Positions 3,570 through 35,478 of a stretch of 35,478 bases of DNA are shown here, in pieces. The translations under genes and the position numbers were made by a program. Position 1 is the first letter of the stretch. Each line of letters starts with the position of its first letter. Source of the DNA: a virus; IMG/VR virus record IMGVR_UViG_3300042317_000317, positions 1 to 35,478 of that record. One strand, written 5' to 3'. The notes below the pieces were generated by a model, which was not told the DNA's origin, did no database searches, and saw only the letters and a program-made list of their open reading frames with translations.

Positions 3570-3929
3570 ATGATTCAGGTTACCAAAGGCATCAGTCAAA
3601 CATTGGTATTTACGTTAAAGGAAAAGACTACGTTAACGAGTCCTTACTATTTGTTTTACTGCGTTGGTCAGGGCAAGAACAACGTAGTAACGTGGATTGC
3701 ACAACCTACGTCAAGTGATGATCGTAAAGATCAATTTACATTTATTGAAGGCACAACGGCATCGTTAAGTGAGCAGATATACAACTACTTTGTGTACGAA
3801 CAGACAAGCGCGGTTAATACAAATCCAAGCCTTGCGACATCATTAGTAGAGCGCGGACAGATGAAAGTTAACGATGTTAACGAACAGGAATATCAGTTGC
3901 CTAATAGCACAACACAATATCACTTCTAA
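3570..3929 (+). CDS. Unknown structural-type phage protein
   Basis: A 119-residue strand-rich protein that opens the transcription unit after the terminator at 3500-3529. Features such as KGISQTLVFTLKEKTTLTSPYYLFY and a later YNYFVYEQ resemble small proteins found beside structural genes in Bacteroidota phages. I cannot give it a function. It may be a small capsid or tail beta-sandwich protein. Its stop codon overlaps the ATG of the portal gene by one base (TAATG), so the two are translationally coupled. The start is set by the promoter box 4 bases upstream. Confidence 0.75.
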   Translation: MIQVTKGISQTLVFTLKEKTTLTSPYYLFYCVGQGKNNVVTWIAQPTSSDDRKDQFTFIEGTTASLSEQIYNYFVYEQTSAVNTNPSLATSLVERGQMKVNDVNEQEYQLPNSTTQYHF

Positions 3930-5824
3930 TGGAGGAAAATAAAAACATACTTCCCGTAATTAAATGGAATGCTTTTAACAATAGAAAGCGTCCTGAATTC
4001 GTGGAAATTAAAAATACGGATATAATTAAGAGCGGTGAGAAAAACGACTTCCCGTATTACTTGACCGATTTATATCGTCGTAGCGCATTACATTCGGCTA
4101 TCATCAACGCGAAGGTGAATTACATCGCAGGTCGTGGATGGACTTTTGAGCGTAGCGCATACATGAGCGTGGCGCAGCGTTCGTTAGCTGAAAATCTAAT
4201 TAAGCAGCCATTTGCGGACATGGATTTGACCGAGTCGACGTTACGATGGACGCGCGACTTTGAAATTCACAATATGTTCGCGGTGTTGGTGAAGTGGAGC
4301 AAGAATAAGCGCACGGCTACGTTAGAACACATCGACGTTGCTAACTTACGCACGAATGAAGATACTACCGAGTTTTATTACACGAGAAAGTGGTATGTAA
4401 TGAAAAACGGTAAGCGGATCGAGAATAAAAACTTCGCAGAAGAGAAGGATTATAAGGTTTATCCTGCCTACGATCCTAACGACCGTAATGGTGATCAGAT
4501 ATTTTTCTATTCAGTGTTCCATCCTGATCAGTACGTGTATTCATTGCCTGTCTATTATGGCGGTGTAACTTGGATCGAGAATCACATTGCCTATTCTGAT
4601 TTTCAATATCAAAATATCACCGCGTCATTCTCACCAATGATGCAGGTTAAGATCTACGGGAATATCCCTGACGAACAAAAGCAGGACGAAATAACGGACG
4701 GCATTACAAAGAATTTCACAAGTCCGGAAGGTAAGCGAATGATTGTAGGCTTTTATCAAAGCCGTGATAGTTCAACGGACGTGGAGGCTATTAATGTTCC
4801 GGATCAGTCAACGCTTTATAAAGAAGTTGCAGAACAGTCGGAGTTAAATATATGTTCAGCACATGAATTCCCGAAACTGTTATTAGGCATTACCACTGCA
4901 GGTGCGTTAGGGCAGCGTAATGAGTTGGTTGTGATGGAAGAGTCTTTCTACAATCGTTACGTGGTTAGCCGTCAGCGTTGCATTGAGTATGTGTTCAACA
5001 CAATCGCACATGATTTGGGGTTACCTATCAATCTTAAGTTACAGCGCGTTAAATCAGTTGATTGGATGCCGAGCGATACAGCTATCGAGAACGCTTTAGG
5101 TGTTGATGGATTGCGTAAGTACGTGTTATCACGCTTGGGCATGGAGGATTCGCAATACATGAAGTATAGCAACGTGAAGCCTAACGCAAATTTGCAGCTG
5201 TTCACAAAGTACGGTGTTGATGCAGCGAAATATGAGGTGGTGAAGTTTCGCGATTTGGAAACCGAGAACGCGGACGAAGTAGAGGTAAGCGAATCGGATT
5301 TTATGACATTCGCAAAGGCTGAAATAAAGTCATTAGATCGTGTGGTATTGGATTTATTAAACAAGGACGCGTTTATGCCATCAGAGGAAATCGCAAAGGT
5401 GGCAAAGGTTTCTATCGGTGATGTGAAAGACACGATTGATCGTTTGCGTGAAGCAGGACGCATCAAATACAGCCCTGAAAAGATCGCAGGTGATAAGGTT
5501 GGCGCGTATGAGTTGACCGAGAAAGGTTTGCAGACGCTCGAAGAGAATCCCGCACGAACAGAGCCGTTAAAGGTTATGTACCGTTATGAATTAGGAGCAA
5601 ACGCACCTAAGTTAGTTGCAGGTGGTAAGTCGCGTCCGTTTTGCGTAGAATTGATGGATATGAAGCGACTTTATAGCCGTGAGGATATAAACGCGATGAG
5701 CGTAGAGGAAGGTCGCAATGTGTGGAGTCTACGCGGTGGTTGGTACACGAATCCAAATACAGGTGTAGCGCGTCCGCAATGCAGACACACTTGGCAGCAA
5801 GTAATCGTTAAAGAAAGACAGTAA
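3929..5824 (+). CDS. Portal protein fused to a winged helix and a Cys/His C-terminal domain
   Basis: The 631-residue product is longer than most portals. Residues 1 to about 440 look like a portal: early KVNYIAGRGWTFE, the central long helices, and an EFPKLLLGITTAGALGQRNE segment typical of the clip and stem. Residues about 468-540 look like a winged helix (helices RVVLDLLNKD, PSEEIAKVAKV and DVKDTIDRLREAGRI, then a wing and GAYELTEKGLQTLEE). The last 85 residues contain SRPFC (568-572), LYSREDI, RGGWYTNPNTG and PQCRH (616-620). This tail resembles a domain found at the ends of phage head proteins and may be MuF-like. The portal forms the dodecameric DNA gate at the capsid vertex. The portal call is firm by texture and place; the two appended domains are inferred. 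It overlaps the previous gene by one base. Confidence 0.8.
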   Translation: MEENKNILPVIKWNAFNNRKRPEFVEIKNTDIIKSGEKNDFPYYLTDLYRRSALHSAIINAKVNYIAGRGWTFERSAYMSVAQRSLAENLIKQPFADMDLTESTLRWTRDFEIHNMFAVLVKWSKNKRTATLEHIDVANLRTNEDTTEFYYTRKWYVMKNGKRIENKNFAEEKDYKVYPAYDPNDRNGDQIFFYSVFHPDQYVYSLPVYYGGVTWIENHIAYSDFQYQNITASFSPMMQVKIYGNIPDEQKQDEITDGITKNFTSPEGKRMIVGFYQSRDSSTDVEAINVPDQSTLYKEVAEQSELNICSAHEFPKLLLGITTAGALGQRNELVVMEESFYNRYVVSRQRCIEYVFNTIAHDLGLPINLKLQRVKSVDWMPSDTAIENALGVDGLRKYVLSRLGMEDSQYMKYSNVKPNANLQLFTKYGVDAAKYEVVKFRDLETENADEVEVSESDFMTFAKAEIKSLDRVVLDLLNKDAFMPSEEIAKVAKVSIGDVKDTIDRLREAGRIKYSPEKIAGDKVGAYELTEKGLQTLEENPARTEPLKVMYRYELGANAPKLVAGGKSRPFCVELMDMKRLYSREDINAMSVEEGRNVWSLRGGWYTNPNTGVARPQCRHTWQQVIVKERQ

Positions 5825-9993: not shown

Positions 9994-10267
9994 TTACACG
10001 CTGCCTGAAGGCTACCCGATGCTCAAGTTTCCTATTGTCAGCTACAATGAGGAACAAGAGTTATATTACAAGCGTAATTTCACAATCAACTACGAAGCGG
10101 ACTATGTGTTGCACTTTCACGCTGACAAGGTAAACGGAGAAAGTTGTACGCGTGTGATATTAGCTTCGGGATATGAGTATATTTGCGCGATGACTGAAAG
10201 TAAGTTTACTCAGTTAATTGAGCCTTATTTCTTTTTCCAATTCATTCAAAATAATTCCAATGGGTAA
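9950..10267 (+). CDS. Unknown protein between phosphoesterase and amidase
   Basis: A frame of 105 residues that starts inside the last 44 bases of the phosphoesterase gene and overlaps the amidase start by 8 bases. Residues 1-15 are Ser/Glu-rich, which partly reflects the overlap. A second possible start is the Met at residue 24, at base 10019. The core is strand-rich (ADYVLHFHADKVNG, TRVILASGYEYIC), a little like small sensor or DNA-binding beta domains, but I recognise no family. No signal peptide is seen. It fills a gap of 266 bases between two certain genes, which favours it being real. Confidence 0.6.
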   Translation: MSSESTESSEAKSTNYTLPEGYPMLKFPIVSYNEEQELYYKRNFTINYEADYVLHFHADKVNGESCTRVILASGYEYICAMTESKFTQLIEPYFFFQFIQNNSNG

Positions 10268-10733
10268 GTTAACGTACTTGGTGCTGCATTGCACCGCAAC
10301 GCCTGAAGGTCGTGCTGTAACAGCTGATCAGATAAGATCGTGGCACACATCACCTCCGCCACAGGGCAGGGGATGGAAACAGGTTGGCTATTCGGCGATG
10401 ATTCACTTAGACGGTAAGGTCGAGATTTTAACACCATTCGACGAAGATGACGATGTAGAAAAGTGGGAGGTAACAAACGGTGTAGCGGGTATTAATTCAA
10501 TTAGCCGTCATATTGTGTACGTTGGCGGTACTGATAAGAATGGACGGGCAAAGGACACACGTACACAGGCGCAACGGATTGCGATAGATAATTTTGTAAA
10601 ACAAACTATCGCAGCGCATCCGAGTATTAAAGTAGCAGGACACAATCAGTTCGCACCTAAGGCGTGTCCGTGCTTTGACGTTCCGACATACTTGCGCTCT
10701 ATCGGTGTTGATGAAACAAACATCCACAGATGA
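10260..10733 (+). CDS. N-acetylmuramoyl-L-alanine amidase, T7 lysozyme-like endolysin
   Basis: The protein has 157 residues, near the 151 of T7 lysozyme. Zinc ligands are visible as H10 in LVLHCTAT, H128 in AGHNQ and C136 in KACPCFD; the catalytic Lys of that motif is K134 and the catalytic Tyr is Y44 in VGYSAMIH. It cuts the amide bond between N-acetylmuramic acid and L-Ala in peptidoglycan. No signal peptide is present, so it needs the holin two genes upstream. I chose ATG at 10260 because MGKLTYLVLHCT is the usual family start; the frame opens earlier at 10218. It overlaps the next gene by 4 bases. Confidence 0.93.
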   Translation: MGKLTYLVLHCTATPEGRAVTADQIRSWHTSPPPQGRGWKQVGYSAMIHLDGKVEILTPFDEDDDVEKWEVTNGVAGINSISRHIVYVGGTDKNGRAKDTRTQAQRIAIDNFVKQTIAAHPSIKVAGHNQFAPKACPCFDVPTYLRSIGVDETNIHR

Positions 10734-11191
10734 AACGCTTTGACATTTATTTCGTAGGTGTGTTGGTTGTGCTTTGCGTGTGGTTTATTCGCACGTGTGA
10801 AAAGCATCCAAGCGTTGACATGAAACCATTGGAGCAGCAAATCGACAGCCTACGTGATGCGATTAATAAGCGCGACACGTTGATTGTGCATCGTGATACT
10901 GTAATAAAGCAAACAAGCCGAATTAAAGAGTTGACACGGGAGTATATTACGCACGTTGACACCGTGTTAAAGTTGCAGATATGCGACACGTTAGCGGTTG
11001 CCTGTGATAGCCTTGCGGATCGTTACCGTGAGCAGGATAGCGTTTTTAGGGCGCAAATCTTCGATTACAGGCAATTAGTAAGCAAACAGGATAGTTCTAT
11101 TCAGTTGTTAAAAAAGCAGCGCACACGACGATTTATCGCAGGATTTGGAGTAGGTTTTGCAACTGGTGTTATAGTTCCGCGAATTCGCTGA
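10730..11191 (+). CDS. Spanin-like membrane protein with coiled coil
   Basis: The protein has 153 residues. An N-terminal membrane segment (about 5-22, IYFVGVLVVLCVWFI) is followed by a long charged coiled-coil region (about 28-130), a basic patch (KKQRTRR) and a hydrophobic C-terminal stretch (FIAGFGVGFATGVIV). One inner-membrane anchor, a periplasmic coiled coil and a second hydrophobic end suit a spanin that links inner and outer membranes at the last step of lysis. It overlaps the amidase by 4 bases, which supports a lysis role. The family is not certain; such membrane coiled-coil proteins are common after endolysins in Bacteroidota phages. The 3' end overlaps the opposing nuclease gene by 23 bases. 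Confidence 0.6.
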   Translation: MKRFDIYFVGVLVVLCVWFIRTCEKHPSVDMKPLEQQIDSLRDAINKRDTLIVHRDTVIKQTSRIKELTREYITHVDTVLKLQICDTLAVACDSLADRYREQDSVFRAQIFDYRQLVSKQDSSIQLLKKQRTRRFIAGFGVGFATGVIVPRIR

Positions 11192-20485: not shown

Positions 20486-21037
20486 GTGAATCGAGATCAG
20501 ATTATCGCAGAATTGTATACTCACAAAGAACTTAAACGTGCTTTGCGAAAGTATGCGATTAGCGCGGAAACACGCGACGATCTTTGGCACTATGTTATTG
20601 AGGCAGTTTGCAAGTTACCTGAAGAAAGTTTGTTGCAGTTACATTCATCAGGACGATTAAAGCACTACGCGTTTATTACTTTGCGGAATTTAGCAGGTAA
20701 CACGCGTAGTGTTTACTTCAAAGAGTGCGGCTTGAATGAGTTTAAGTTGACAATGGACGAAGTGGATGTGATAGCGGATGAAGAGGACGTGGATCAGTTG
20801 CCAGTTATCGAAATGGATCAATTCAAAGCGTTCTTAGATTATGCAGCGCGTGAACGTACTGATATTACGATGGAGGCTATTGTTACGCGTGAATATATTA
20901 ATTACACACCTATTAAGCGTAGAAGCTATCGGGACTTTCAAATAGTAACCGGAATACATTATAGCAGCGTTTGCGTGTACGTTAAACGAATGGTAAAAGA
21001 ATTTAACCAAAACCAAAACCAATGCGTATCTCATTAG
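20486..21037 (+). CDS. Sigma factor-like protein, probable late gene activator
   Basis: The protein has 183 residues, ECF-sigma sized. The first half, TRDDLWHYVIEAVCKLPEESLLQL, then GRLKHYAFITLRNLAGNTRSVY, resembles sigma region 2 as found in Bacteroidota phage sigma-like proteins. An acidic linker follows (DEVDVIADEEDVDQLP). The end, RRSYRDFQIVTGIHYSSVCVYVKRM, resembles the region 4 helix-turn-helix. It could direct host RNA polymerase to the TAAAC/TAATTTTAT promoters. The start is GTG, 5 bases after a -7 box. Its C-terminal NQNQNQ comes from the ACCAAAACCAAAACC leader of the next gene. Assignment is by pattern only. Confidence 0.6.
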   Translation: MNRDQIIAELYTHKELKRALRKYAISAETRDDLWHYVIEAVCKLPEESLLQLHSSGRLKHYAFITLRNLAGNTRSVYFKECGLNEFKLTMDEVDVIADEEDVDQLPVIEMDQFKAFLDYAARERTDITMEAIVTREYINYTPIKRRSYRDFQIVTGIHYSSVCVYVKRMVKEFNQNQNQCVSH

Positions 21038-22179
21038 TAATGACAGGCACACCGGATCATCCCATCAGAAACGGGATGGACTTGTATCGTCTGTATATGC
21101 CGTATAGTAAGGTCGAAGGCGTTACGATCAACCTTAAGCACGATCTTATCGGTGCAAAGTTGGACGCGGACGTATACGTCATTAATCGCGCTTATCCTGT
21201 TGAGTTATTTCGATATATTAAGGATCGAGGTAAAAAGATCATTCTCGACCTTGACGATCACTGGGACATTCCTACGTGGCATCGTCTGCACCCGAAGCGA
21301 TTAGAAGCAAACATTCAACACGCTAAGTCGTTGAAGTTAGATAACGAGGCGCAAATGTTACAGCGTCAATTGGACGAGGTGGTAAGTTGGAAGCATCAAC
21401 TAAATGAGGTTGTTAAAATTGTGGACGCGGTTACCGTGTCGACACCCATGTTATCTGCTTACTATGTTAAGCAATTTGGCATACTTCCTACAATTATACC
21501 AAACACGATTGCACCTGAAATAACACGCTTTACTACAAAGAAGCAACCATCACGATTTACTCGCTTTGGGTTTATCGCAGGAACATTCCGGGAGCGTGAT
21601 GCAGCATTAATGCACAAAGGCATTCAGCGTTCGTTTAAGGATCAGGAATTGAAGGGAAGGTGGCAGTTGATCCAGACATTCAACGCGCACGGTAGCTATG
21701 CTGAGCAAGAGCGCAACTTTACCAACAACTACACGAACGTATCGGAGTGGTATCGGGATTACCTTAAAAAGTTTATCGAGCAAGGCAACCATGTTGCGAA
21801 TCAGCAATGGTACAAACGCGTGTGGGCTATGGATGCTGTTAACTACGGTAAGATGTACGAAGAAGTTGATGTGGCACTTATTCCTATGCAGCACGGTGTA
21901 TTTAATTCCTGCAAATCAGAGTTGAAGTTGATCGAGGCAGGTTTTACTGGATGCGCTGCAATAGTATCGGATGTCATGCCGTATGCACCTTATTTGGAAA
22001 GCAACGTCAACTGCATAGCTACTAACGAAGATCAGGGGTGGTATCGCGGAATCCGTGAACTGACTTTGAACAAAGAATTACGTCATAAGTTAGCTTGGAA
22101 TCTTCAAGAGACAATGTTTGAACACTTTAACCATAACCGCGCAGATGCAGCGGTACACACACTACTTAACACATTATGA
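21022..22179 (+). CDS. Glycosyltransferase, GT-B fold (GT4/GT1-like)
   Basis: The protein has 385 residues. The N-terminal half has ISLVMTGTPDHP, DADVYVINRAYP, KIILDLDDHWDIP and AVTVSTPMLSAYY, followed by ILPTIIPNTIAPE, as in GT-B enzymes working on sugars. The C-terminal half has FGFIAGTF and VDVALIPMQHGVFNSCKSELKLIEAGFTGCAAIVSDV, where the Glu in KLIEAG is the usual nucleotide-sugar contact. It should move a sugar from a nucleotide donor to a glycan or protein. It is the first of seven tightly packed genes, starting inside the sigma-like gene. Confidence 0.85.
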   Translation: MRISLVMTGTPDHPIRNGMDLYRLYMPYSKVEGVTINLKHDLIGAKLDADVYVINRAYPVELFRYIKDRGKKIILDLDDHWDIPTWHRLHPKRLEANIQHAKSLKLDNEAQMLQRQLDEVVSWKHQLNEVVKIVDAVTVSTPMLSAYYVKQFGILPTIIPNTIAPEITRFTTKKQPSRFTRFGFIAGTFRERDAALMHKGIQRSFKDQELKGRWQLIQTFNAHGSYAEQERNFTNNYTNVSEWYRDYLKKFIEQGNHVANQQWYKRVWAMDAVNYGKMYEEVDVALIPMQHGVFNSCKSELKLIEAGFTGCAAIVSDVMPYAPYLESNVNCIATNEDQGWYRGIRELTLNKELRHKLAWNLQETMFEHFNHNRADAAVHTLLNTL

Positions 22180-22850
22180 AGATCGGTATAGGGGTAACAG
22201 GATGCACACGTCCTGAACACGTACAGACGTGCGTGGATGAGATTAAAAAGCACACGCAATTGGATCACAAGTTAGTCGTAATGATTGACGAGAAAAAGAA
22301 AGGCGTTGCATGGAATAAAAACCAATGCCTTGAGGCTTTAAAGGATTGCGACTATGTATTTTTATTTGATGACGATTGCTTTCCACGTGCAAAAGGATGG
22401 GAAACATTCTTTATTGAACATTCCAAGCGTACAGGTAATCAACACTTCATATATCAACACGAAACATTGCAGGTTACGCAGATTAAATGCGTGGATGACA
22501 TTGCTCATTACAACAATTGTAATGGCTGCATGATGTTCTTTACCCGTGCTTGTTTAGATTGCATTGGTAGCTTTGACGAGTCATTCGGGGTATATGGCTT
22601 TGAACACGCTGACATGAGCGTACGTGCTAACTTATCAGGGTTTACACAAGCGGACTTCGTTTGTCCTATCGGAGCAAGTCAGTACGTTTATTCTTTAGAC
22701 TTAGATAACTACATCGAATATCCTATTGAACACCGTCCGTCTTTATTTCCTGACGAAATCGCACAGGCTGTAAAGGTTAGCCGTGAACGATGGGTTAATA
22801 AACTGAATAACGAATTAAAACCAAAGCAAGATGAAAAAGATTCTAATTAA
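22176..22850 (+). CDS. Glycosyltransferase, GT-A fold (GT2-like)
   Basis: The protein has 224 residues. KIGIGVTGCTRPEHVQTCV begins the nucleotide-binding fold, YVFLFDDDCFPRAKGW has the metal-binding acid cluster D65-D67, and GVYGFEHADMSVRAN has E143 and D146 in the place of the catalytic base. No membrane segment is present, so it works in the cytoplasm on a soluble or virion acceptor. It overlaps the preceding gene by 4 bases and the next by 20. The overlap with the next gene contains an AAAACCAAAGCAAG leader. Confidence 0.83.
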   Translation: MKIGIGVTGCTRPEHVQTCVDEIKKHTQLDHKLVVMIDEKKKGVAWNKNQCLEALKDCDYVFLFDDDCFPRAKGWETFFIEHSKRTGNQHFIYQHETLQVTQIKCVDDIAHYNNCNGCMMFFTRACLDCIGSFDESFGVYGFEHADMSVRANLSGFTQADFVCPIGASQYVYSLDLDNYIEYPIEHRPSLFPDEIAQAVKVSRERWVNKLNNELKPKQDEKDSN

Positions 22851-23499
22851 GTACGCATCCCGTCAACGTCCGGATAAGTTTGCGCGTGGTATGGATAGCA
22901 TCATGAAGGCGACGAACAAAAGTCGCATAACGGTGTTGGTATCATTAGACAAAGACGATCCCGAATTACTGCAATATCACCGCGTAATGGAACACAACCC
23001 AGATTTGCGCGTTATTTGTTTAATTGGTACATCCTACGGTAAGATAGATGCTATTAACCGTGATATGCACACTTTACAAGATTGGGATATATTGGTCAAT
23101 TTTTCCGACGACATGGTGTTTACTGTCGATGGGTGGGATGACATAATCGAGCAACAATTTACTGACGAACCTTTGTTCCTGCATTTACCTGACGGACATC
23201 AGAATGAGAACATCAGCACGATGTCTATTATGAATAAAGCGTACTACAATCAGGACGGCTACATCTACCATCCATCCTATAAGTCATTATGGTGCGACGT
23301 TGAAGCAACGGAGGTGGCAAAGTTACGCGGTCAGCACAAATACGTAGGCGTTCGCATTTTCGACCACTTGCACGTAGCATGGGGTAAGGCTGAATGGGAT
23401 GCTTTGTACGTTAAGAATGAGAACCGTGAACTTTGGAATCATGACGAACAAGTTTACCACACACGCAAAGCAAACAATTATGAACTACAGCCAAAATAA
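22831..23499 (+). CDS. Glycosyltransferase-like protein, GT-A fold
   Basis: The protein has 222 residues. ILIKYASRQRPDKFARGMDS, ITVLVSLDKDDPE and DILVNFSDDMVFTVDGWDD follow the GT-A plan, with SDD at 92-94 as the metal site. WCDVEATEVAKLRG and a final HARLY-type His pair (LHVAWGK region) fit the acceptor half. The acceptor and donor are unknown. It is embedded in the glycan cluster and overlaps both neighbours. Confidence 0.75.
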   Translation: MKKILIKYASRQRPDKFARGMDSIMKATNKSRITVLVSLDKDDPELLQYHRVMEHNPDLRVICLIGTSYGKIDAINRDMHTLQDWDILVNFSDDMVFTVDGWDDIIEQQFTDEPLFLHLPDGHQNENISTMSIMNKAYYNQDGYIYHPSYKSLWCDVEATEVAKLRGQHKYVGVRIFDHLHVAWGKAEWDALYVKNENRELWNHDEQVYHTRKANNYELQPK

Positions 23500-24082
23500 C
23501 GAGCAGGAAATAATCCTGAATTACTTTGCTGGTAAGACTGGCAGGTTATTGGACATCGGAGCAAATGACGGTAAGACGTTCAGCAATAGCTACGCACTTA
23601 TTGAGCAGGGGTGGGGTGGTATCTTGGTTGAGCCATTGCCATCGTGCGTTAAAAAGTTAAAAAAGTTGCACGGTGAAAATAACAAAGTAACAATCATTGA
23701 TGCTGCTATTGTTTCCGTACCTACGGACGAAAAGATAAAGTTTTACGTTAATGATCCGCACATTCCTAACGATGACGGGTTATTAAGTACGGCTGTCGTG
23801 TCCGAGAAAGATCGTTGGAAGGGATTAAACTTTAACGAAATCGAAGTTGACGCATACACCTACACTGACTTATTTGACGGTGAGAAATTCGACTTTATAA
23901 GCATCGATGCTGAAGGTATGGATTACGCGATACTTCGTCAGATCGACTTAACTAAGACGGAGTGCAAGTTATTGTGCGTAGAGTTTAATGGTGTCAACCC
24001 ACAAGTATACCTTGACTATTGCGTGAAACACGGAATGCAAGAAATTCACCGGAATAATGAAAATCTAATCTTTGCAAAATGA
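23480..24082 (+). CDS. FkbM-family methyltransferase
   Basis: The protein has 200 residues. RLLDIGANDGKTFSNSYAL is the AdoMet-binding motif I (DIGAND at 25-30), ILVEPLP has the acidic ribose contact (E51), and FDFISIDAEGMDYAIL (D143, E145, D148) is the FkbM signature. Family members O-methylate sugars or polyketides. Its setting among glycosyltransferases suggests methylation of a hydroxyl on the glycan. I chose the Met at 23480 (MNYSQNNEQEI); the frame extends upstream inside the previous gene. Confidence 0.9.
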   Translation: MNYSQNNEQEIILNYFAGKTGRLLDIGANDGKTFSNSYALIEQGWGGILVEPLPSCVKKLKKLHGENNKVTIIDAAIVSVPTDEKIKFYVNDPHIPNDDGLLSTAVVSEKDRWKGLNFNEIEVDAYTYTDLFDGEKFDFISIDAEGMDYAILRQIDLTKTECKLLCVEFNGVNPQVYLDYCVKHGMQEIHRNNENLIFAK

Positions 24083-24741
24083 AAACTATCGAACAATACA
24101 TAGCTGAAATTATTGACGAGAAGGACGAATTATTATTTTTTGAGTTTGGAATGTACGATGCTTATCACACGTATATTATGCTCGACATGATTCCGAGTAG
24201 CAAGAAATTTGAGTATCATGGCTTTGAAATGATCGACTGGCTATACAATCAAATAGTTGATAAGAAAAAAACATACGCAAACGGTCAGATGCATTTGGTT
24301 AACAAAGCAATATCCGATAAAACAGGGATTAAGAAGTTTTACAAATCGGGAGGCAAACGTGATGAAAATGGACAACTAAAAGAACATTATTATGGCAGTA
24401 GTTCAATAGTTAAGCCCGTAGAAGTTACAAACGTATTTCCGGCAATGAACTTTACTGAGTCGCAAGTGGAGTGCATAAAATTAGACGATTACGTGAATGA
24501 GTCAGGGTTAACTGGCAAAGTGATTGATTTTATTTGGGCAGACATTCAAGGAGCGGAACATCTGTTAATTAAAGGCGGAGTTAATACCTTCAAAAATGTA
24601 AGATACTTCTACACGGAATACTGCGGTAAAGAATGGTATAAAGGCAATAAAGATGCGAAAGGAATACAAAGAATGCTACCATATTTTGAAGTCGTGCAAG
24701 ACTTTGGCGGTGATGTGTTACTGAAAAATAAAAACCTATGA
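24079..24741 (+). CDS. FkbM-like methyltransferase, divergent
   Basis: The protein has 220 residues. LLFFEFGMYDAYHTYIML replaces the usual glycine-rich motif I, FEYHGFEMIDW holds the acidic contact, and IDFIWADIQGAEHLLIKGG is a close FkbM end motif (D-x-Q-G-x-E). The weakened motif I, FGMYDA, means AdoMet binding is not certain. It may act on another position of the same glycan or have become an accessory protein. It overlaps the previous methyltransferase by 4 bases and the next gene by 4 bases. Confidence 0.72.
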   Translation: MKTIEQYIAEIIDEKDELLFFEFGMYDAYHTYIMLDMIPSSKKFEYHGFEMIDWLYNQIVDKKKTYANGQMHLVNKAISDKTGIKKFYKSGGKRDENGQLKEHYYGSSSIVKPVEVTNVFPAMNFTESQVECIKLDDYVNESGLTGKVIDFIWADIQGAEHLLIKGGVNTFKNVRYFYTEYCGKEWYKGNKDAKGIQRMLPYFEVVQDFGGDVLLKNKNL

Positions 24742-25319
24742 TGTTATCAATTTTAATTCCTACCGTACCACAAAGATCGCGGTTGCTTATTCAGCTATTA
24801 GATGAGTTGAATAAACAGATACAGGACTGCAGCGCGTTCGATGTTGTGGAAATAATAACCGACGATGCGCCTGTTGGAAGTAAAAGTACCGGGCAAAAAA
24901 GAAATGATTTGCTCGACAAGGCTAATAACAAATACGTATGGTTTATTGACGATGACGATATGGTGATGAAAAACGCAATTCGCAACATATTGACGGCGTT
25001 GGATCAAAACCCTGACGCTTTGGGAATAAATGGCATCATTACTACGGATGGAGTCAACCCGAAAAAGTGGTACATCAGCAAAGATTTAGAGTATATGGCA
25101 GACACGATAAATGGCAACGAAGTGTACCTAAGACCAACAAATCACATAACGCCTGTAAAAAAAGAGATTGCACAGGCTATAAGATTTGAACACAAAAGCA
25201 ACTTCGAGGACTACGAATACTGCATGAAGTTGAAAAATGCAGGGCTGATAAAGACTGAGGTTAAAATTGACGAGCCCGTTTATCATTATAAGTATTTGTC
25301 AACAAATAAACTATACTAA
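24738..25319 (+). CDS. Glycosyltransferase, GT2-like
   Basis: The protein has 193 residues, short for a GT2. MLSILIPTVPQRSRLLIQLL is a classic start, and GQKRNDLLDKANNKYVWFIDDDDMV gives the RN segment and the acid cluster D71-D74. FEDYEYCMKLKNAG is the catalytic-base region and VKIDEPVYHYKY ends the domain. It transfers a sugar using a metal ion. It continues the overlapping gene chain (4 bases before, 1 base after). Confidence 0.85.
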   Translation: MMLSILIPTVPQRSRLLIQLLDELNKQIQDCSAFDVVEIITDDAPVGSKSTGQKRNDLLDKANNKYVWFIDDDDMVMKNAIRNILTALDQNPDALGINGIITTDGVNPKKWYISKDLEYMADTINGNEVYLRPTNHITPVKKEIAQAIRFEHKSNFEDYEYCMKLKNAGLIKTEVKIDEPVYHYKYLSTNKLY

Positions 25320-26020
25320 TGAAAGTAGCTGTTTGTTCATACGCGAGTGCGTGTCATAAGTTCGGACGCGATAAAAGCCAAAGATACTTTAAGTATGCTG
25401 AACGGTTAAGGGATGGGTTGACGGGTGTAGACTTTTATCTATTTACTGAAAATAACCTCGACCATCCTAACCATAGCGAAGTGCCGTATGCCTTCAAACC
25501 ATACGCTATTGACAAACTGCGAAAGGAATACGATATTGTCATCTGGGCAGATAGTTGCGTGTACGCAATAAAACCGATAGACAAGTTTATCGAATACATC
25601 AAGATAAACGGGTTTGCATTCTTTGATAACATCGGATTCAAAATTGGCGATTACACTTCGGACGAATGCTTAAACAACTTAGGCATGAGTAGAGATGAAT
25701 CATTTAATCACCCGATGATTATGGCTTGTTTAATGGGCTTCAATTTCACAAATGACAAAGCAGTAAAATTATTTGATGCATATTACCAAGCCACAAAAAT
25801 TAAAGGTTGTTACGAAGGTGATTGGTCTAATCAATTTAACCAAGTAAGTCAAGACAATCGAGTGAAGGGACACAGGCACGATCAGTCGGTGATGAGTGTC
25901 TTATTAGCCAAAGAAAAAATAAAGCCTTTGCATCCTCATTCTACATTTTTTGCCTATTATGGCAACGCTGGTCATTTACCACACGCTCAGACCGTTTGTT
26001 TACTTTCTCAAGGATTTTAA
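25319..26020 (+). CDS. Glycosyltransferase-like protein with WAD motif
   Basis: The protein has 233 residues. VAVCSYASACHKFG, DFYLFTEN and YDIVIWADSCVYAIKP suggest a GT-A-like enzyme in which WAD (D78) takes the DxD place. GHRHDQSVMSVLL near residue 195 resembles the His-Asp-Gln segment of several glycosyltransferase families. No membrane segment is present. The exact family is not known to me. It closes the seven-gene cluster; the following gene starts 1 base later. Confidence 0.68.
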   Translation: MKVAVCSYASACHKFGRDKSQRYFKYAERLRDGLTGVDFYLFTENNLDHPNHSEVPYAFKPYAIDKLRKEYDIVIWADSCVYAIKPIDKFIEYIKINGFAFFDNIGFKIGDYTSDECLNNLGMSRDESFNHPMIMACLMGFNFTNDKAVKLFDAYYQATKIKGCYEGDWSNQFNQVSQDNRVKGHRHDQSVMSVLLAKEKIKPLHPHSTFFAYYGNAGHLPHAQTVCLLSQGF

Positions 26021-26766: not shown

Positions 26767-27205
26767 AGACGAAAAGGGAAGATTTACAGAACGTAACATT
26801 TGGTCGCTAATCAAAAAAAATGTAGGCAGACCGCGTTTGTGGGAAACACCCGAGGAACTTTTGACGGCAGGTTTATCTTATTTTGAATGGGCAGATGACG
26901 TTTACAAGGGTAAATATGCCGAGGCAGATATGCGTTTGTACTTAGGATTTCATAACCGCACATCGTGGCATGACTACAAACATAATCCCGAATTTGCGAA
27001 CGTTATATACATATTAGAATCGATCATGGAAGGCGACACGGAAAAGAAATTAATGTGGGCAGCATCCACTCAAGGCGCGATATTTAAATTGAAAAACAAA
27101 TTCGGTTGGAAGGACGAAGTAACCCAAAACCAAAACATAACTAATGTCCAAGCATCTTTCGGTGAAGTTGTACCGTCCGCATCAGAATCAGCAAAAGATT
27201 CATGA
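26750..27205 (+). CDS. terS: Terminase small subunit
   Basis: The protein has 151 residues. GRPRLWETPEELLTAGLSYF is a typical start of the DNA-binding region, then MRLYLGFHNRTSWHDYKHN, and IMEGDTEKKLMWAASTQGAIFKLKNKFGWKDE is the strongly conserved end helix. It recognises phage DNA and regulates the large subunit. The last 62 bases overlap the large subunit gene. The codons for TQNQN in its C-terminus are also the AACCAAAACATAA leader of that gene. Confidence 0.88.
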   Translation: MSETGRDEKGRFTERNIWSLIKKNVGRPRLWETPEELLTAGLSYFEWADDVYKGKYAEADMRLYLGFHNRTSWHDYKHNPEFANVIYILESIMEGDTEKKLMWAASTQGAIFKLKNKFGWKDEVTQNQNITNVQASFGEVVPSASESAKDS

Positions 27206-28346
27206 TTCGATAAACGGTAGTAACTACAAATACTACGTGCTTAACATTGGTCGTCAATTCGGTAAAACGATGTTGGCGATGAATCAACTATTTTATTGGA
27301 TGTTCAACAATAGCGGATGTAAGTGCGCGTGGATTTCACCCGTTTACAAGCAGTCCAAGAAAGTATTTGAGGAAATGGTGTTGGCATTTGAGGGGACGGG
27401 ACTAATCGAAAAAAATGCAACGGAGTTAACTATTAAGATCGGCAAATCTTCGCTTCAATTCTTCAGCGCGGAACGTTACGACAACATACGAGGCTTTACA
27501 TTCGATTACCTTGTATGCGATGAGTTTGCGTTTATGGACGAAGCAGCATGGACGGAGGTGCTACGTGCTACTGTCCTTGTCAAAGGTCGCAAGGTGTTAT
27601 TGATTAGTACACCAAAGGGAAAAAACCACTTTTATAACCTGTATAACTTGTCAGGGGTTAACGATCAGTACAAATCGTTCCGGATGAGTTCGTACGATAA
27701 CCCGTTAATCAATCCACAAGAAATAGACGATGCGCGGTTGACATTACCCGACCATGTATTCAGGCAGGAATACTTAGCGGAGTTTATCGACGGTGGTGCG
27801 GGAATATTTGCGCCAAAGTGGGAAGATGCTGCAGGTGGGACACGTTTCTTTGCAGGTGTTGACTTAGGTAGGGCGGATGACTATTCGGTACTGTCGATTT
27901 TTAACGAGCAAGGCAAACAGGTGTACATTAATCGCTGGAGACATAACACGTGGGCAAATATCACACGGGAAATAACTACCGTAATTAATCAATTTAACGC
28001 ACGTGCATTTGTCGAGGTTAACAGTATCGGTGATGCGTTAATAGATCAAATAAAGCAGCAATGCCGTAACCCGCAAAACATAGAGCCGTTCGTAACAACA
28101 AGCAAGTCAAAGAATGACGCGATTGAGCAGTTGGCGGTTGCTACACAAAATGGTGAGGTAACATTCTTACCTATTGACTGGTTGCAAAAGGAGTTCGATG
28201 TGTTTACCTTTGAGTACAACGCTAAGTCAAGGACGATCAAATACGGTGCGCCATACGGATTCCACGATGACGGTGTAATGGCTACGGCAATAGCGTATAA
28301 TTGCTTTAAAGAAAGTAAAGGACATCAATTCTCAATCAGATATTAA
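27144..28346 (+). CDS. terL: Terminase large subunit
   Basis: The protein has 400 residues. The ATPase part has NIGRQFGKT (34-42) as Walker A, DYLVCDEFAFMDE (121-133) with Walker B and the catalytic Glu, and LISTPKGKN as the coupling motif. The nuclease part has FAGVDLGRADDYSV with D240, FVEVNSIGDAL, and HDDGVMATAIAY as the third acidic site. It pumps DNA into the prohead and cuts it. The genome maps as circular, which fits headful packaging, but termini cannot be decided here. ATG at 27144 lies inside the small subunit gene. Confidence 0.95.
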   Translation: MSKHLSVKLYRPHQNQQKIHDSINGSNYKYYVLNIGRQFGKTMLAMNQLFYWMFNNSGCKCAWISPVYKQSKKVFEEMVLAFEGTGLIEKNATELTIKIGKSSLQFFSAERYDNIRGFTFDYLVCDEFAFMDEAAWTEVLRATVLVKGRKVLLISTPKGKNHFYNLYNLSGVNDQYKSFRMSSYDNPLINPQEIDDARLTLPDHVFRQEYLAEFIDGGAGIFAPKWEDAAGGTRFFAGVDLGRADDYSVLSIFNEQGKQVYINRWRHNTWANITREITTVINQFNARAFVEVNSIGDALIDQIKQQCRNPQNIEPFVTTSKSKNDAIEQLAVATQNGEVTFLPIDWLQKEFDVFTFEYNAKSRTIKYGAPYGFHDDGVMATAIAYNCFKESKGHQFSIRY

Positions 28347-28347
28347 C

Positions 28348-28947
28348 ATGAACTATCAAAAATTAAAGGCAGGTCAATTAGGCGACTTTTTCCGCATTGC
28401 AGCCGTACAACCTAAGGACGAAATAGAGCAATTAGATAAGGATGTTGCATTGCTATCCATGATTCACGGAAAGCCTGACAACTACTTCACAAACCTATCC
28501 TTTAAAGACTTTAACGAATACCGGAAACAGTTGTATGCGTTGTTATCCGTAGAGCCGTCAGCGCGTTACATTCCGGCATTTAAGGTTAACGGGTATAAAT
28601 TCACTTGCTTACCTAACGTTAACACAATCAAAGTGCATCACGAGCAAGATGTAAAGATGCTGCGATTAAATGCAGATAACCTATACGATAAGTTGCCTTA
28701 CATCGTCGCTATCTTTTCCGAGCAACGTAAGCAGCTATTTAAAAAGCAACTATCATTTGTTGATAAGTGCGAACTATTCAAAAAACATCTACCTGCAGAC
28801 GTAGCAATCGGTATCGCGCTTTTTTTTTGCGCGGCATCAAAGAAACTCGAACCGCTTATCGCAACCTATTTGGAGGAACTAACCGACAAACTGGAGGCGG
28901 AGGTGAACAAGGCGTTAGCATCCATGAACATTGGGGATGGCAACTAA
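28348..28947 (+). CDS. Tail assembly chaperone, short form
   Basis: The protein has 199 residues. LGDFFRIAAVQPKDEIEQLDKDVALLSMIHGKPDNYFTNLSF and the helical end FFCAASKKLEPLIATYLEEL resemble the chaperones that coat the tape measure protein in Bacteroidota siphoviruses. Such genes usually make a second, longer product by a ribosomal frameshift. An open -1 frame overlaps its last 180 bases and extends it to 29105. Here the gene lies six genes before the tape measure gene, farther than the usual adjacent position. It starts one base after the terminase stop codon. Confidence 0.7.
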   Translation: MNYQKLKAGQLGDFFRIAAVQPKDEIEQLDKDVALLSMIHGKPDNYFTNLSFKDFNEYRKQLYALLSVEPSARYIPAFKVNGYKFTCLPNVNTIKVHHEQDVKMLRLNADNLYDKLPYIVAIFSEQRKQLFKKQLSFVDKCELFKKHLPADVAIGIALFFCAASKKLEPLIATYLEELTDKLEAEVNKALASMNIGDGN

Positions 28948-29105
28948 ATATCTACGAGATCACGAACGGGGATAAGACCAAAGAGGATGCGTATTGGAAT
29001 ATGACGCTGATTGAGTGGTACAACCGCTTGGCACTTATGAAAGACGTGCAGGATGACCACAAAGAGCGTATGGAGGCAATAAAGCAGAAGATGCAGGTAC
29101 GCTAA
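28767..29105 (+). CDS. -1 frame extension of the tail chaperone (fusion product)
   Basis: This frame is open from 28767 to 29105 and is the -1 frame relative to the chaperone gene. Its second half, GWQLNIYEITNGDKTKEDAYW then IEWYNRLALMKD, looks like the domain added to tail chaperones by frameshifting; it has no good start of its own. The best slippery site is T9 at 28820-28828. The zero-frame helix after T9 also looks real (FFCAASKKLEPLI), so the shift could instead fall near 28930 (IGDG followed by WQLNIYE), where no strong slip heptamer is seen. A shift at T9 gives 252 residues. Confidence 0.6.
   Translation: MRTIQKTSTCRRSNRYRAFFLRGIKETRTAYRNLFGGTNRQTGGGGEQGVSIHEHWGWQLNIYEITNGDKTKEDAYWNMTLIEWYNRLALMKDVQDDHKERMEAIKQKMQVR
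28815..28833 (+). promoter_or_regulatory. Slippery T9 flanked by CGCGC and GCGCG
   Basis: CGCGC at 28815-28819 and GCGCG at 28829-28833 bracket nine T at 28820-28828. The zero-frame reading is CTT TTT TTT TGC, so T-TTT-TTT is a perfect -1 slip heptamer. The two GC arms could form a hairpin with the T run as its loop. Slippage by RNA polymerase on the T9 run is another possibility. Confidence 0.55.
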
Positions 29106-29131
29106 ACGTTAACCCGTTCATGTAATTTTAT
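29103..29131 (+). promoter_or_regulatory. Phage late promoter, copy 4 (TAAAC-N15-TAATTTTAT)
   Basis: TAAAC at 29103-29107, whose TAA is the stop codon of the chaperone extension, lies 15 bases before TAATTTTAT at 29123-29131. ATG follows after 4 bases. It should begin the transcript for tail completion, distal tail and fibre proteins and the tape measure. Confidence 0.68.
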
Positions 29132-29135
29132 AGGC

Positions 29136-29684
29136 ATGGCGGTAACAGGCGGCAATCCCGATGACTTTGTATTCGACACCCTTACAACATGGGCGCAAAA
29201 TGTCGTTAATGAAATCCGGAACAACCTTACAAAGAAAGATCCATTTTTAGGTGATTCCGATTTAGCACAGTCCATCACGCCACAGGTAGAGCGTACAGAT
29301 GATGGCTACGTGTTGACAATAACCATGAACGACTATTGGAAGTATGTCGATCAGGGACGTAAACCAACAAGAGGAAGTGGTGATGGATCAGTACGTAAGA
29401 ATCTATTGTTGTGGATCAGTAAACGTGGAATTGCACCACAACTAAGCCAAAAAGTATACAACAAAAAGACGGGCAAATACTACAACCGCACTTTCAAAAG
29501 TTCTTTAGAATGGCGCGATTCTTTGTCCTATGCTATTGCGTCAAAGATTCACAAGAAAGGATTTGTTAGCAGAGGCAAAGGATTTTTTAGCGAAGTGTGG
29601 CAAGAGGAAAACATAAATGAATTGCTGCAAACATTACTAAGCGAAAGCGGTGAGGTGTTTGTGGCTCAAATACTTGAAGATTAA
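29136..29684 (+). CDS. Tail completion protein, HK97 gp10-like
   Basis: The protein has 182 residues. A helical N-terminus is followed by YVLTITMNDYWKYVDQGRKPTRGSG, the GR-x-P motif seen in gp10-like head-tail joining or tail terminator proteins, and a helical, basic C-terminal half (SYAIASKIHKKGFVSRGKGFF). Position after the chaperone and before large tail proteins fits. It likely closes the tail tube at the head end. The stop codon overlaps the start of the next gene by one base. Confidence 0.65.
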   Translation: MAVTGGNPDDFVFDTLTTWAQNVVNEIRNNLTKKDPFLGDSDLAQSITPQVERTDDGYVLTITMNDYWKYVDQGRKPTRGSGDGSVRKNLLLWISKRGIAPQLSQKVYNKKTGKYYNRTFKSSLEWRDSLSYAIASKIHKKGFVSRGKGFFSEVWQEENINELLQTLLSESGEVFVAQILED

Positions 29685-34281: not shown

Positions 34282-35478
34282 ATGGCAACAAGAGAGGAAG
34301 TAGTAAAACTCACCATCGAATCAGCGGAGGCTGCAAAATCTGTTAAAGAGGTACGCGAATCGCTGAAGGCTATTCGTGATCAGATGATGGCAGTTGGTGA
34401 TGACTCAAAAGAGTTTCATCAATTAGCGGCGGCTGCGGCTGAATTGAAAGACCGTGTCAATGACGCTAACGAGGCAATAGCTGCGATGCACCCTGATGGG
34501 TTTCAAGCCGTTACCAACTTCGCATCAAAAGCGGCAGGGGCTATTCAAGGTGTAACAGGTGCAATGGCTTTATTCGGTGGTGAATCAGAGGCGGTTGAGC
34601 AAACAATGATGAAGCTACAGGCGGCAATGGCTTTGACGCAAGGATTACAAGCGGTTAAAGACTTAGGTAAGGCATGGACGGATGTTAACGCTACAATTCG
34701 TACTAATCCTGTTGCGGCTATCGTTACGGCTGTTATAGCGTTAGGTGCAGCGGTTAAGGAGGTAGTGGATTATTTTAACCCATTAAACACAGAAGCGCGA
34801 AGATTACAAGCAATAAGCGAAAGGACTACAAAAGAAGTAGAATTACGTGCAGGTTATTTAGACAATGAAATAAAGTTAGCACAAGCACGTGGAGCGACCG
34901 AAGGGGAAATATACGAATTACAACAAAAGCAAGTTCAGGAAAAGATTAAAGGAGCAAAGGCTGCATTAGCTGCAGCGGAGGCTACATTAAAGCAGCAACA
35001 AGCCGAAAAGGGTGTATTGGATTACATCGGTGAGGCATATATTATGATGCTTAAGTTGACCGGTCAAACTGAAATGGCTAACGTCCAAGAACAAGCACAG
35101 GCAGCACGGAGAAAGGAGAATTTACAAGAATATGTTGACGCGGTTAATGAGGCTAAGTTGACATTAGATGGATTGATTACTGAACAGCAAATAGTAGAGG
35201 CAAACCACACTAACTTCCTCAAAGATCAATACAAAGAACGGGCAAAGGCACAACAAGAGGCAATACAACAAACGCATGAGGTGTTTATGCCTATCATGCA
35301 GCAACAAGTTGCGGTACAACAACAAGCAACAGCCGAATTGCAGGTTGGAACTTTTAATGCGATGGAAGGTGTGGAAGGTCGCGTTAAAACATTCCAAGAG
35401 CGTTTATTAGATGTTCAGGCGCGTATTTATCGAGCGGCAGCAAATGCTCAATCGAAGTTTGGTGGTGAATTAGCTAAT
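34282..35478 (+). CDS. Tail tape measure protein, N-terminal part (gene continues at window start)
   Basis: The frame is open from ATG at 34282 to the last base and continues in frame at base 2 of the window, giving 542 residues in all. It starts MATREEVVKLTIESAEAAKS with SVKEVRESLKAIRDQMMAVG, a form usual in Bacteroidota tape measure proteins. A hydrophobic segment (NPVAAIVTAVIALGAAV) and long coiled coil (about 190-360) follow. A simple gene scan of the linear window misses it because no stop lies before the end. It follows the fibre gene by 4 bases. Confidence 0.88.
   Translation, partial: MATREEVVKLTIESAEAAKSVKEVRESLKAIRDQMMAVGDDSKEFHQLAAAAAELKDRVNDANEAIAAMHPDGFQAVTNFASKAAGAIQGVTGAMALFGGESEAVEQTMMKLQAAMALTQGLQAVKDLGKAWTDVNATIRTNPVAAIVTAVIALGAAVKEVVDYFNPLNTEARRLQAISERTTKEVELRAGYLDNEIKLAQARGATEGEIYELQQKQVQEKIKGAKAALAAAEATLKQQQAEKGVLDYIGEAYIMMLKLTGQTEMANVQEQAQAARRKENLQEYVDAVNEAKLTLDGLITEQQIVEANHTNFLKDQYKERAKAQQEAIQQTHEVFMPIMQQQVAVQQQATAELQVGTFNAMEGVEGRVKTFQERLLDVQARIYRAAANAQSKFGGELAN
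35352..35478. repeat. Terminal direct repeat, right copy
   Basis: These last 127 bases equal bases 1-127. Removing one copy gives a circular sequence of 35,351 bases with an intact tape measure gene. Confidence 0.95.

Follow-up and report, generated by a model that had tools for sequence, protein, structure and literature searches.

The locus described here raises the question of whether two overlapping reading frames of a phage are joined at a homopolymeric run and, if so, whether it is the ribosome or RNA polymerase that changes frame there. The window, by which we mean the whole stretch of DNA analysed (35,478 bases), derives from a circular phage genome that is 35,351 bases long, an identical 127-nt repeat being present at both ends of the window (positions 1-127 and 35352-35478). 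ORF A (28348-28947, plus strand, like the run, segment B, the terminase gene, the gene at 29136-29684 and the candidate tape measure gene described below) lies directly downstream of the terminase large subunit gene (TerL, 27144-28346) and encodes, in the 0 frame, a short product of 199 amino acids, the AlphaFold2 model of which has a mean pLDDT of 88.2. It contains nine consecutive T's (28820-28828), bracketed by CGCGC (28815-28819) and GCGCG (28829-28833). The codons at the run are GCG CTT TTT TTT TGC, which puts the heptamer T_TTT_TTT (28821-28827) into X_XXY_YYZ phase; such a heptamer is contained in any T9. The -1 frame is open from 28767 to 29105. Its segment B (28827-29105) comprises 92 amino acids after the run, followed by a stop codon, and joining it to A would produce a long A-B form of about 252 amino acids. 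The coordinates and codons agree with a preliminary description of the locus, which had reported a correctly phased slip heptamer held between two GC arms, and the open -1 frame that it had noted up to 29105 represents a real coding domain conserved in relatives. The T9 is the sole T or A run of at least nine bases in the window and is kept in 17/17 near-identical IMG/VR loci. No Rfam match was found within 28300-29200.

We located the frame switch by comparison with related loci. The -1 frames of relatives align from the run onward as FF[LF]...Y..LFG...WGW...D.TK...FLN.L.Y.KDK, with Y..LFG placed within about 16 residues of the run and a variable linker preceding WGW. In the window, these conserved -1 frame motifs are located at 28857-28874 (Y..LFG) and 28932-28940 (WGW). 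The switch must thus occur upstream of 28857, which excludes a shift near 28930, as had initially been suspected. Of 80 loci found with TerL, 60 were examined; the nearly identical L019-L033 (15 loci) and 5 short loci were set aside. A is overlapped by a -1 frame ORF with T_TTT_TTT in phase in 57 of these 60; in the other three, the pair is found further downstream (L047), the locus ends too early (L081), or A and B form a single-frame fusion (L066). In one clade, the run is shifted upstream by one codon when measured against the A alignment, and the -1 frame is one residue longer.

The pattern of variation among 9 distinct close sequences (16 compared; the short loci L011 and L016 were left out) is consistent with dual coding. 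Third positions of the 0 frame vary at 67 of 157 sites upstream of the run, at 8/23 in 28829-28896 and at 1/16 in 28897-28944. From 28948 onward, third positions of the -1 frame account for 22 of the 30 variable sites. It follows that the 0 frame is coding up to its stop and that the -1 frame imposes further constraint, which is clearest beginning with 28897. In the stretch from the run to 28896, changes are tolerated in the -1 frame, mostly within the linker, and this tolerance may have been the source of the earlier suspicion of 28930.

Several relatives (L066 and loci among L167-L186) encode A and B in one frame and have no T run. The C-terminal part of these natural fusions corresponds to the -1 segments (hhalign, 98.1%, E 1.2e-13) and their N-terminal part to A (profile comparison, 96.2%, E 2.5e-9); the alignments A2 (26 rows) and A4 (23 rows) consist of the window and a selection of 37 representatives. 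In the sister lineage L167, L170-L186, only the single-frame A-B fusion is present, without the long 0-frame tail of A. In our AlphaFold2 model of A, a helix (residues 150-193) passes through the Phe-Phe encoded by T9, and the model of the natural fusion L170 (mean pLDDT 86.5) has a helix (130-150) at the equivalent place. The run is thus predicted to lie inside a helix that is continued differently by each frame. Together, the -1 alignment from the run onward and the natural single-frame fusions support T9 as the frame-switch site, and the sequence comparisons indicate that it is the join between A and the -1 frame.

We analyzed how the run itself has been maintained, using diverged relatives gathered by TerL scans. 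An iterated profile detected A in 285 loci. A run of T9 or T10 is carried by 266 of these; the 15 that lack a run encode A and B as an in-frame fusion, and the remaining 4 are truncated ahead of the site. Collapsing loci that are identical over 220 nt surrounding the run reduces the 266 run-bearing loci to 138 distinct sequences, one of which is shared by the window and L001-L003. T9 is found in 130 of these and T10 in 8. The comparison of the T run in related phages, which had been proposed as a check, thus returned T9 or T10 at every run-bearing locus and never a shorter run, T8 included. In 4/138, the -1 ORF is cut off or, by our criterion, fails to extend beyond the end of A, and the run is still T9. 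The site has nine or more T's in 37/37 representative relatives; their 251 kb contain no other coding-strand T run of at least nine bases and two A9 runs.

The position of the run relative to the codons is not constant. Across the 138 sequences, the T's are distributed over the codons as 1+6+2 in 77, as 2+6+1 in 53 and as 2+6+2 in 8. A small or polar residue before Phe-Phe (Ser, Gly, Ala, Thr, Asn or Tyr), which supplies one T on the left, is always combined with TTG or TTA as the next codon, and this supplies two T's on the right. With Val or Leu in this position (two left T's), the next codon provides one T in 53 of 61 cases and two in 8. The left/right compensation is significant when sequences are clustered at 50% identity (24 clusters, 14/8/2, Fisher p 6e-5) or at 70-80% identity (37 clusters, Fisher p 1e-8), with clusters taken as independent. 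On a TerL tree of 49 rows (L127, which has no TerL hit, was left out), the left T count changed at least five times while the run stayed at nine or more. A phylogeny-aware pair test yielded two supported independent pairs (five on all branches), a number at which significance is unreachable. The total length of the run is conserved, and its codon register is not. T10 with the 2+6+2 distribution is found in the L061/L080 clade and in L222 and may be an intermediate between both T9 registers.

We consider programmed transcriptional slippage at T9, in a gene with two products, to be the best and a probable reading of these data. According to this model, A and the -1 segment B would constitute one gene that specifies a short A (199 amino acids) and a long A-B (about 252 amino acids). 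RNA polymerase copying T9 would insert an extra U into some of the transcripts, and ordinary translation of such a U10 transcript would enter the -1 frame and generate the A-B fusion. The preliminary description had mentioned polymerase slippage as a possible contributor; it is now the mechanism favoured by the comparative data, in which run length is kept and register varies. From the conservation of run length we infer both that the polymerase rather than the ribosome would slip and that U10 transcripts would make up a share of the message. The T's on the left and right of the run are interchangeable, which is hard to reconcile with tRNA pairing and natural for an RNA polymerase blind to frame.

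Bacterial RNA polymerase is described as slipping efficiently on nine A's or T's in a passage of PMC5009743, and a section of PMC6260861 states that the Escherichia coli enzyme prefers poly(T), with insertion at 5 and 10% for T7/T8. IS elements use nine-base runs, as mentioned in PMC1088944. In Thermus dnaX, in Shigella type III secretion genes and in IS elements, an uninterrupted run of about nine A's or T's is located in the overlap of two ORFs and the second product comes from the shifted frame only, as in our locus; here, the gene belongs to a phage, its layout is chaperone-like and slippage is predicted. In agreement with this class of T9/A9 slippage sites, our run of about nine bases lies in the overlap of two ORFs, and its length is kept irrespective of register. 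Our searches among open-licence PubMed Central papers turned up no tail assembly chaperone gene for which transcriptional slippage is described; for an Acinetobacter prophage, slippage is mentioned for the tape measure and topoisomerase genes in a passage of PMC6095929.

A tentative alternative, which we regard as possible and distinctly less probable than not, is programmed -1 ribosomal frameshifting on U_UUU_UUU, with tRNA-Phe in both sites slipping back by one base and the extra T's either helping or following from the hydrophobic residues in both frames. The heptamer is indeed in phase in every run-bearing locus, though this is unavoidable in any T9, and lambda-type chaperone switches are known to be ribosomal, according to a passage of PMC5009743. 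As to the Shine-Dalgarno-like stimulator that a canonical ribosomal cassette carries upstream, Bacteroidia hosts would rarely use Shine-Dalgarno sequences, according to PMC8710568. Seven T's would suffice for the ribosome, whereas the run is never shorter than nine in 138 sequences, and the exchange of left for right T's again speaks against it. A ribosomal site should also accept TTTTTTC. In 50/53 of the 2+6+1 sequences, turning the second Phe codon from TTT into TTC would be silent in both frames and leave U_UUU_UUC, yet TTTTTTC is absent from the site in 138/138 distinct run-bearing sequences. TTC accounts for 35% of Phe codons in the long ORFs of these loci, and by a hand estimate about 15% would be expected per lineage once the codon preferences of both frames are counted, so that its absence is a modest argument for the polymerase. 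Every run-bearing sequence has a T immediately after its second Phe codon. A need for hydrophobic residues in both frames may account for some of the T richness, which counts against slippage by the polymerase; likewise, the register TTT TTT TTT, which a purely frame-blind constraint would allow, is absent in all 138.

RNA structure bears on the same choice. By pseudoknot-free folding of 38 sites, we detected no local structure upstream or downstream of the run (mean z -0.11, 0.11 and 0.12; the first two values are for the downstream side, where 1 and 0 of 38 sites fall below -2). This may count against a ribosomal switch, and it fits slippage by the polymerase, for which a pure run needs no structure. 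The loop-embedded design between complementary GC arms, put forward initially, is not supported: in 27/38 sites, the bases next to the run form no pair (19 sites) or a single pair (8 sites), and a hairpin presenting T9 in its loop was rejected as a stimulator, with six-pair arms occurring in 3 of the 38. The CGCGC and GCGCG arms (28815-28833) are limited to the closest clade; L035 has TTGCGC/GCAGGG and L085 TCTGTG/GCAAAG. The arms appear to be incidental and look like a by-product of Ala-Leu and Cys-Ala codons. We consider it improbable that polymerase and ribosomal slippage act together at the same run to set the product ratio: both signals coexist in any T9, but nothing in the sequence demands both, and the conserved length suggests that a single constraint dominates. 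Still more improbable, to the point that we give it very little weight, is the absence of any programmed fusion, be it that A and B are separate proteins with B made from its own start, that the run is phase-variable at the DNA level, or that it is an assembly error. GTG at 28767 and TTG at 28827 are available as starts in the -1 frame, and the database record of one isolated phage (see below) gives A and B as separate genes. Against separate proteins, the -1 frame is conserved all the way from the run, and it shows homology to the continuous helix of the natural fusions. Against phase variation or error, there is no T8, T11 or in-frame T10 among the 266 run-bearing loci, and two cultured phages carry T9.

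These are the Nonlabens phages P12024S and P12024L (Inhavirus), in both of which the gene that follows terL has a T9 and is accompanied by a WSW/WGW domain that is out of frame. In P12024S, the codons at the run are CTT TTT TTT TAT, and its record lists A and B as two separate hypothetical proteins (phrog_32199 and phrog_38404). Both phages are very divergent from the window and were linked to it via the fold of A (BFVD rank 20, E 4.8e-7). The presence of T9 in these isolates removes the objection of a metagenome-assembly artefact, and the homopolymer error considered in the preliminary description is contradicted by the recurrence of T9 or T10 in 138 distinct sequences as well as in P12024S and P12024L. 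Searches with A and B by blastn and tblastn against the phage collection returned nothing, and TerL retrieved distant phages only; the named relatives were reached by the fold search and then through P12024S/L. A contig from a metagenome-assembled genome named Chitinophagaceae (L237) encodes a TerL 88% identical to that of L069, the first row of the query alignment, a match in line with a Bacteroidota host. In one further record, Shigella phage Henu10 (H56, OQ791282.1), the TerL match has the same coordinates and identity as in Riemerella phage vB_RanS_PT15, and its host label may be wrong.

Flavobacterium phage 6H provided an A-like fold match (E 2e-3), with a presumed gene that has no T9 and no simple -1 pair. 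On the minus strand of this phage (L313), at about 10047-10927, an A-like gene precedes an unannotated stretch, whose open frames lie in other registers and whose T run is only a T6. This stretch represents either another kind of switch or sequence errors, and phage 6H counts against T9 being universal beyond the lineage. By scripted scan, Riemerella phage RAP44, Olleya phage Harreka_1 and Bacteroides phage BS-TP2, which have another gene order, contain no T-run pair of the chaperone type; the scan did report a single A8 pair in 6H and another in RAP44, both located in other genes.

We next consider what the two products may do. A role as tail assembly chaperone is likely, as judged from the two nested products, their place in a packaging and tail gene block and scattered weak matches to chaperone families. 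The block order is TerL, A/B, a weakly HK97-gp10-like gene (29136-29684, E 0.03, below cut-off), tail genes and a candidate tape measure gene that crosses the circle junction (34282-35478 and on to 559), tape-measure-like by eye and with an unnamed PHROG match only. By eye, glycosyltransferase-like and FkbM-type methyltransferase-like genes are found upstream of the terminase genes (21022-26020). The gene at 3929-5824 encodes a portal-sized protein of 631 amino acids with a winged-helix match (HTH_24, E 0.001, below cut-off) and a C-terminal stretch that, by eye, recalls MuF-type fusions. For A/B, weak matches were obtained with Pfam Phage_TAC_7 (1/26 members, E 0.009), with the PHROG tail assembly chaperone family phrog_3140 (1/26 members, E 0.096) and with the folds of BFVD entries named tail assembly chaperone (E 0.12-0.13). 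Foldseek against the PDB gave no match at E 0.001 or better for the model of A or of the natural fusion, VIA-align against the PDB reached at best Z 2.6 (natural fusion) and 2.3 (A), and a profile search of PDB sequences with the A3 alignment returned nothing credible. The chaperone-like domain that had been proposed is therefore plausible, not proven: layout and two products fit, and the profile and fold matches are weak only.

The closest functional parallel is lambda gpG/gpGT, which like A/B consists of two overlapping ORFs in a -1 relation, with a shared N-terminal part, in a morphogenesis gene block. As in gpG/gpGT, a short and a long product from overlapping ORFs with a frame switch are predicted from the sequence. 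There is, however, no significant sequence or fold match between the two systems, and the lambda switch is ribosomal. Chaperones of the lambda type bind the tape measure and tail tube proteins and are not part of the virion. A/B follows terL directly and is not placed directly upstream of the tape measure, four genes separating its end (29105) from the candidate tape measure start (34282); we thus do not file it as a lambda-type member, though it would work like one. In the E/E' chaperone of phage P2, a ribosomal -1 frameshift takes place on a T-rich heptamer; this site is not known to have a T9.

Frame switching in tail chaperones is a textbook case of programmed ribosomal frameshifting. On balance, we are inclined to think that a large phage lineage, probably of Bacteroidota, sets the ratio of short to long chaperone by polymerase slippage on a frame-blind T9, and we lean to the same degree towards a history in which the run was kept across codon registers and the run-less lineages have both parts fused in frame. 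Annotation can split genes of this kind into two hypothetical proteins with no stated relation, as seen for P12024S, and P12024S and P12024L represent a cultured system in which the mechanism can be tested. Asking whether total run length or codon register stays constant provides a comparative test that may distinguish polymerase from ribosomal slippage by sequence. If our reading is true, the same pair of products would be reached via transcription, placing the ratio of short to long form under the control of RNA polymerase, and selection would act on the presence of two products rather than on the mechanism that makes them.
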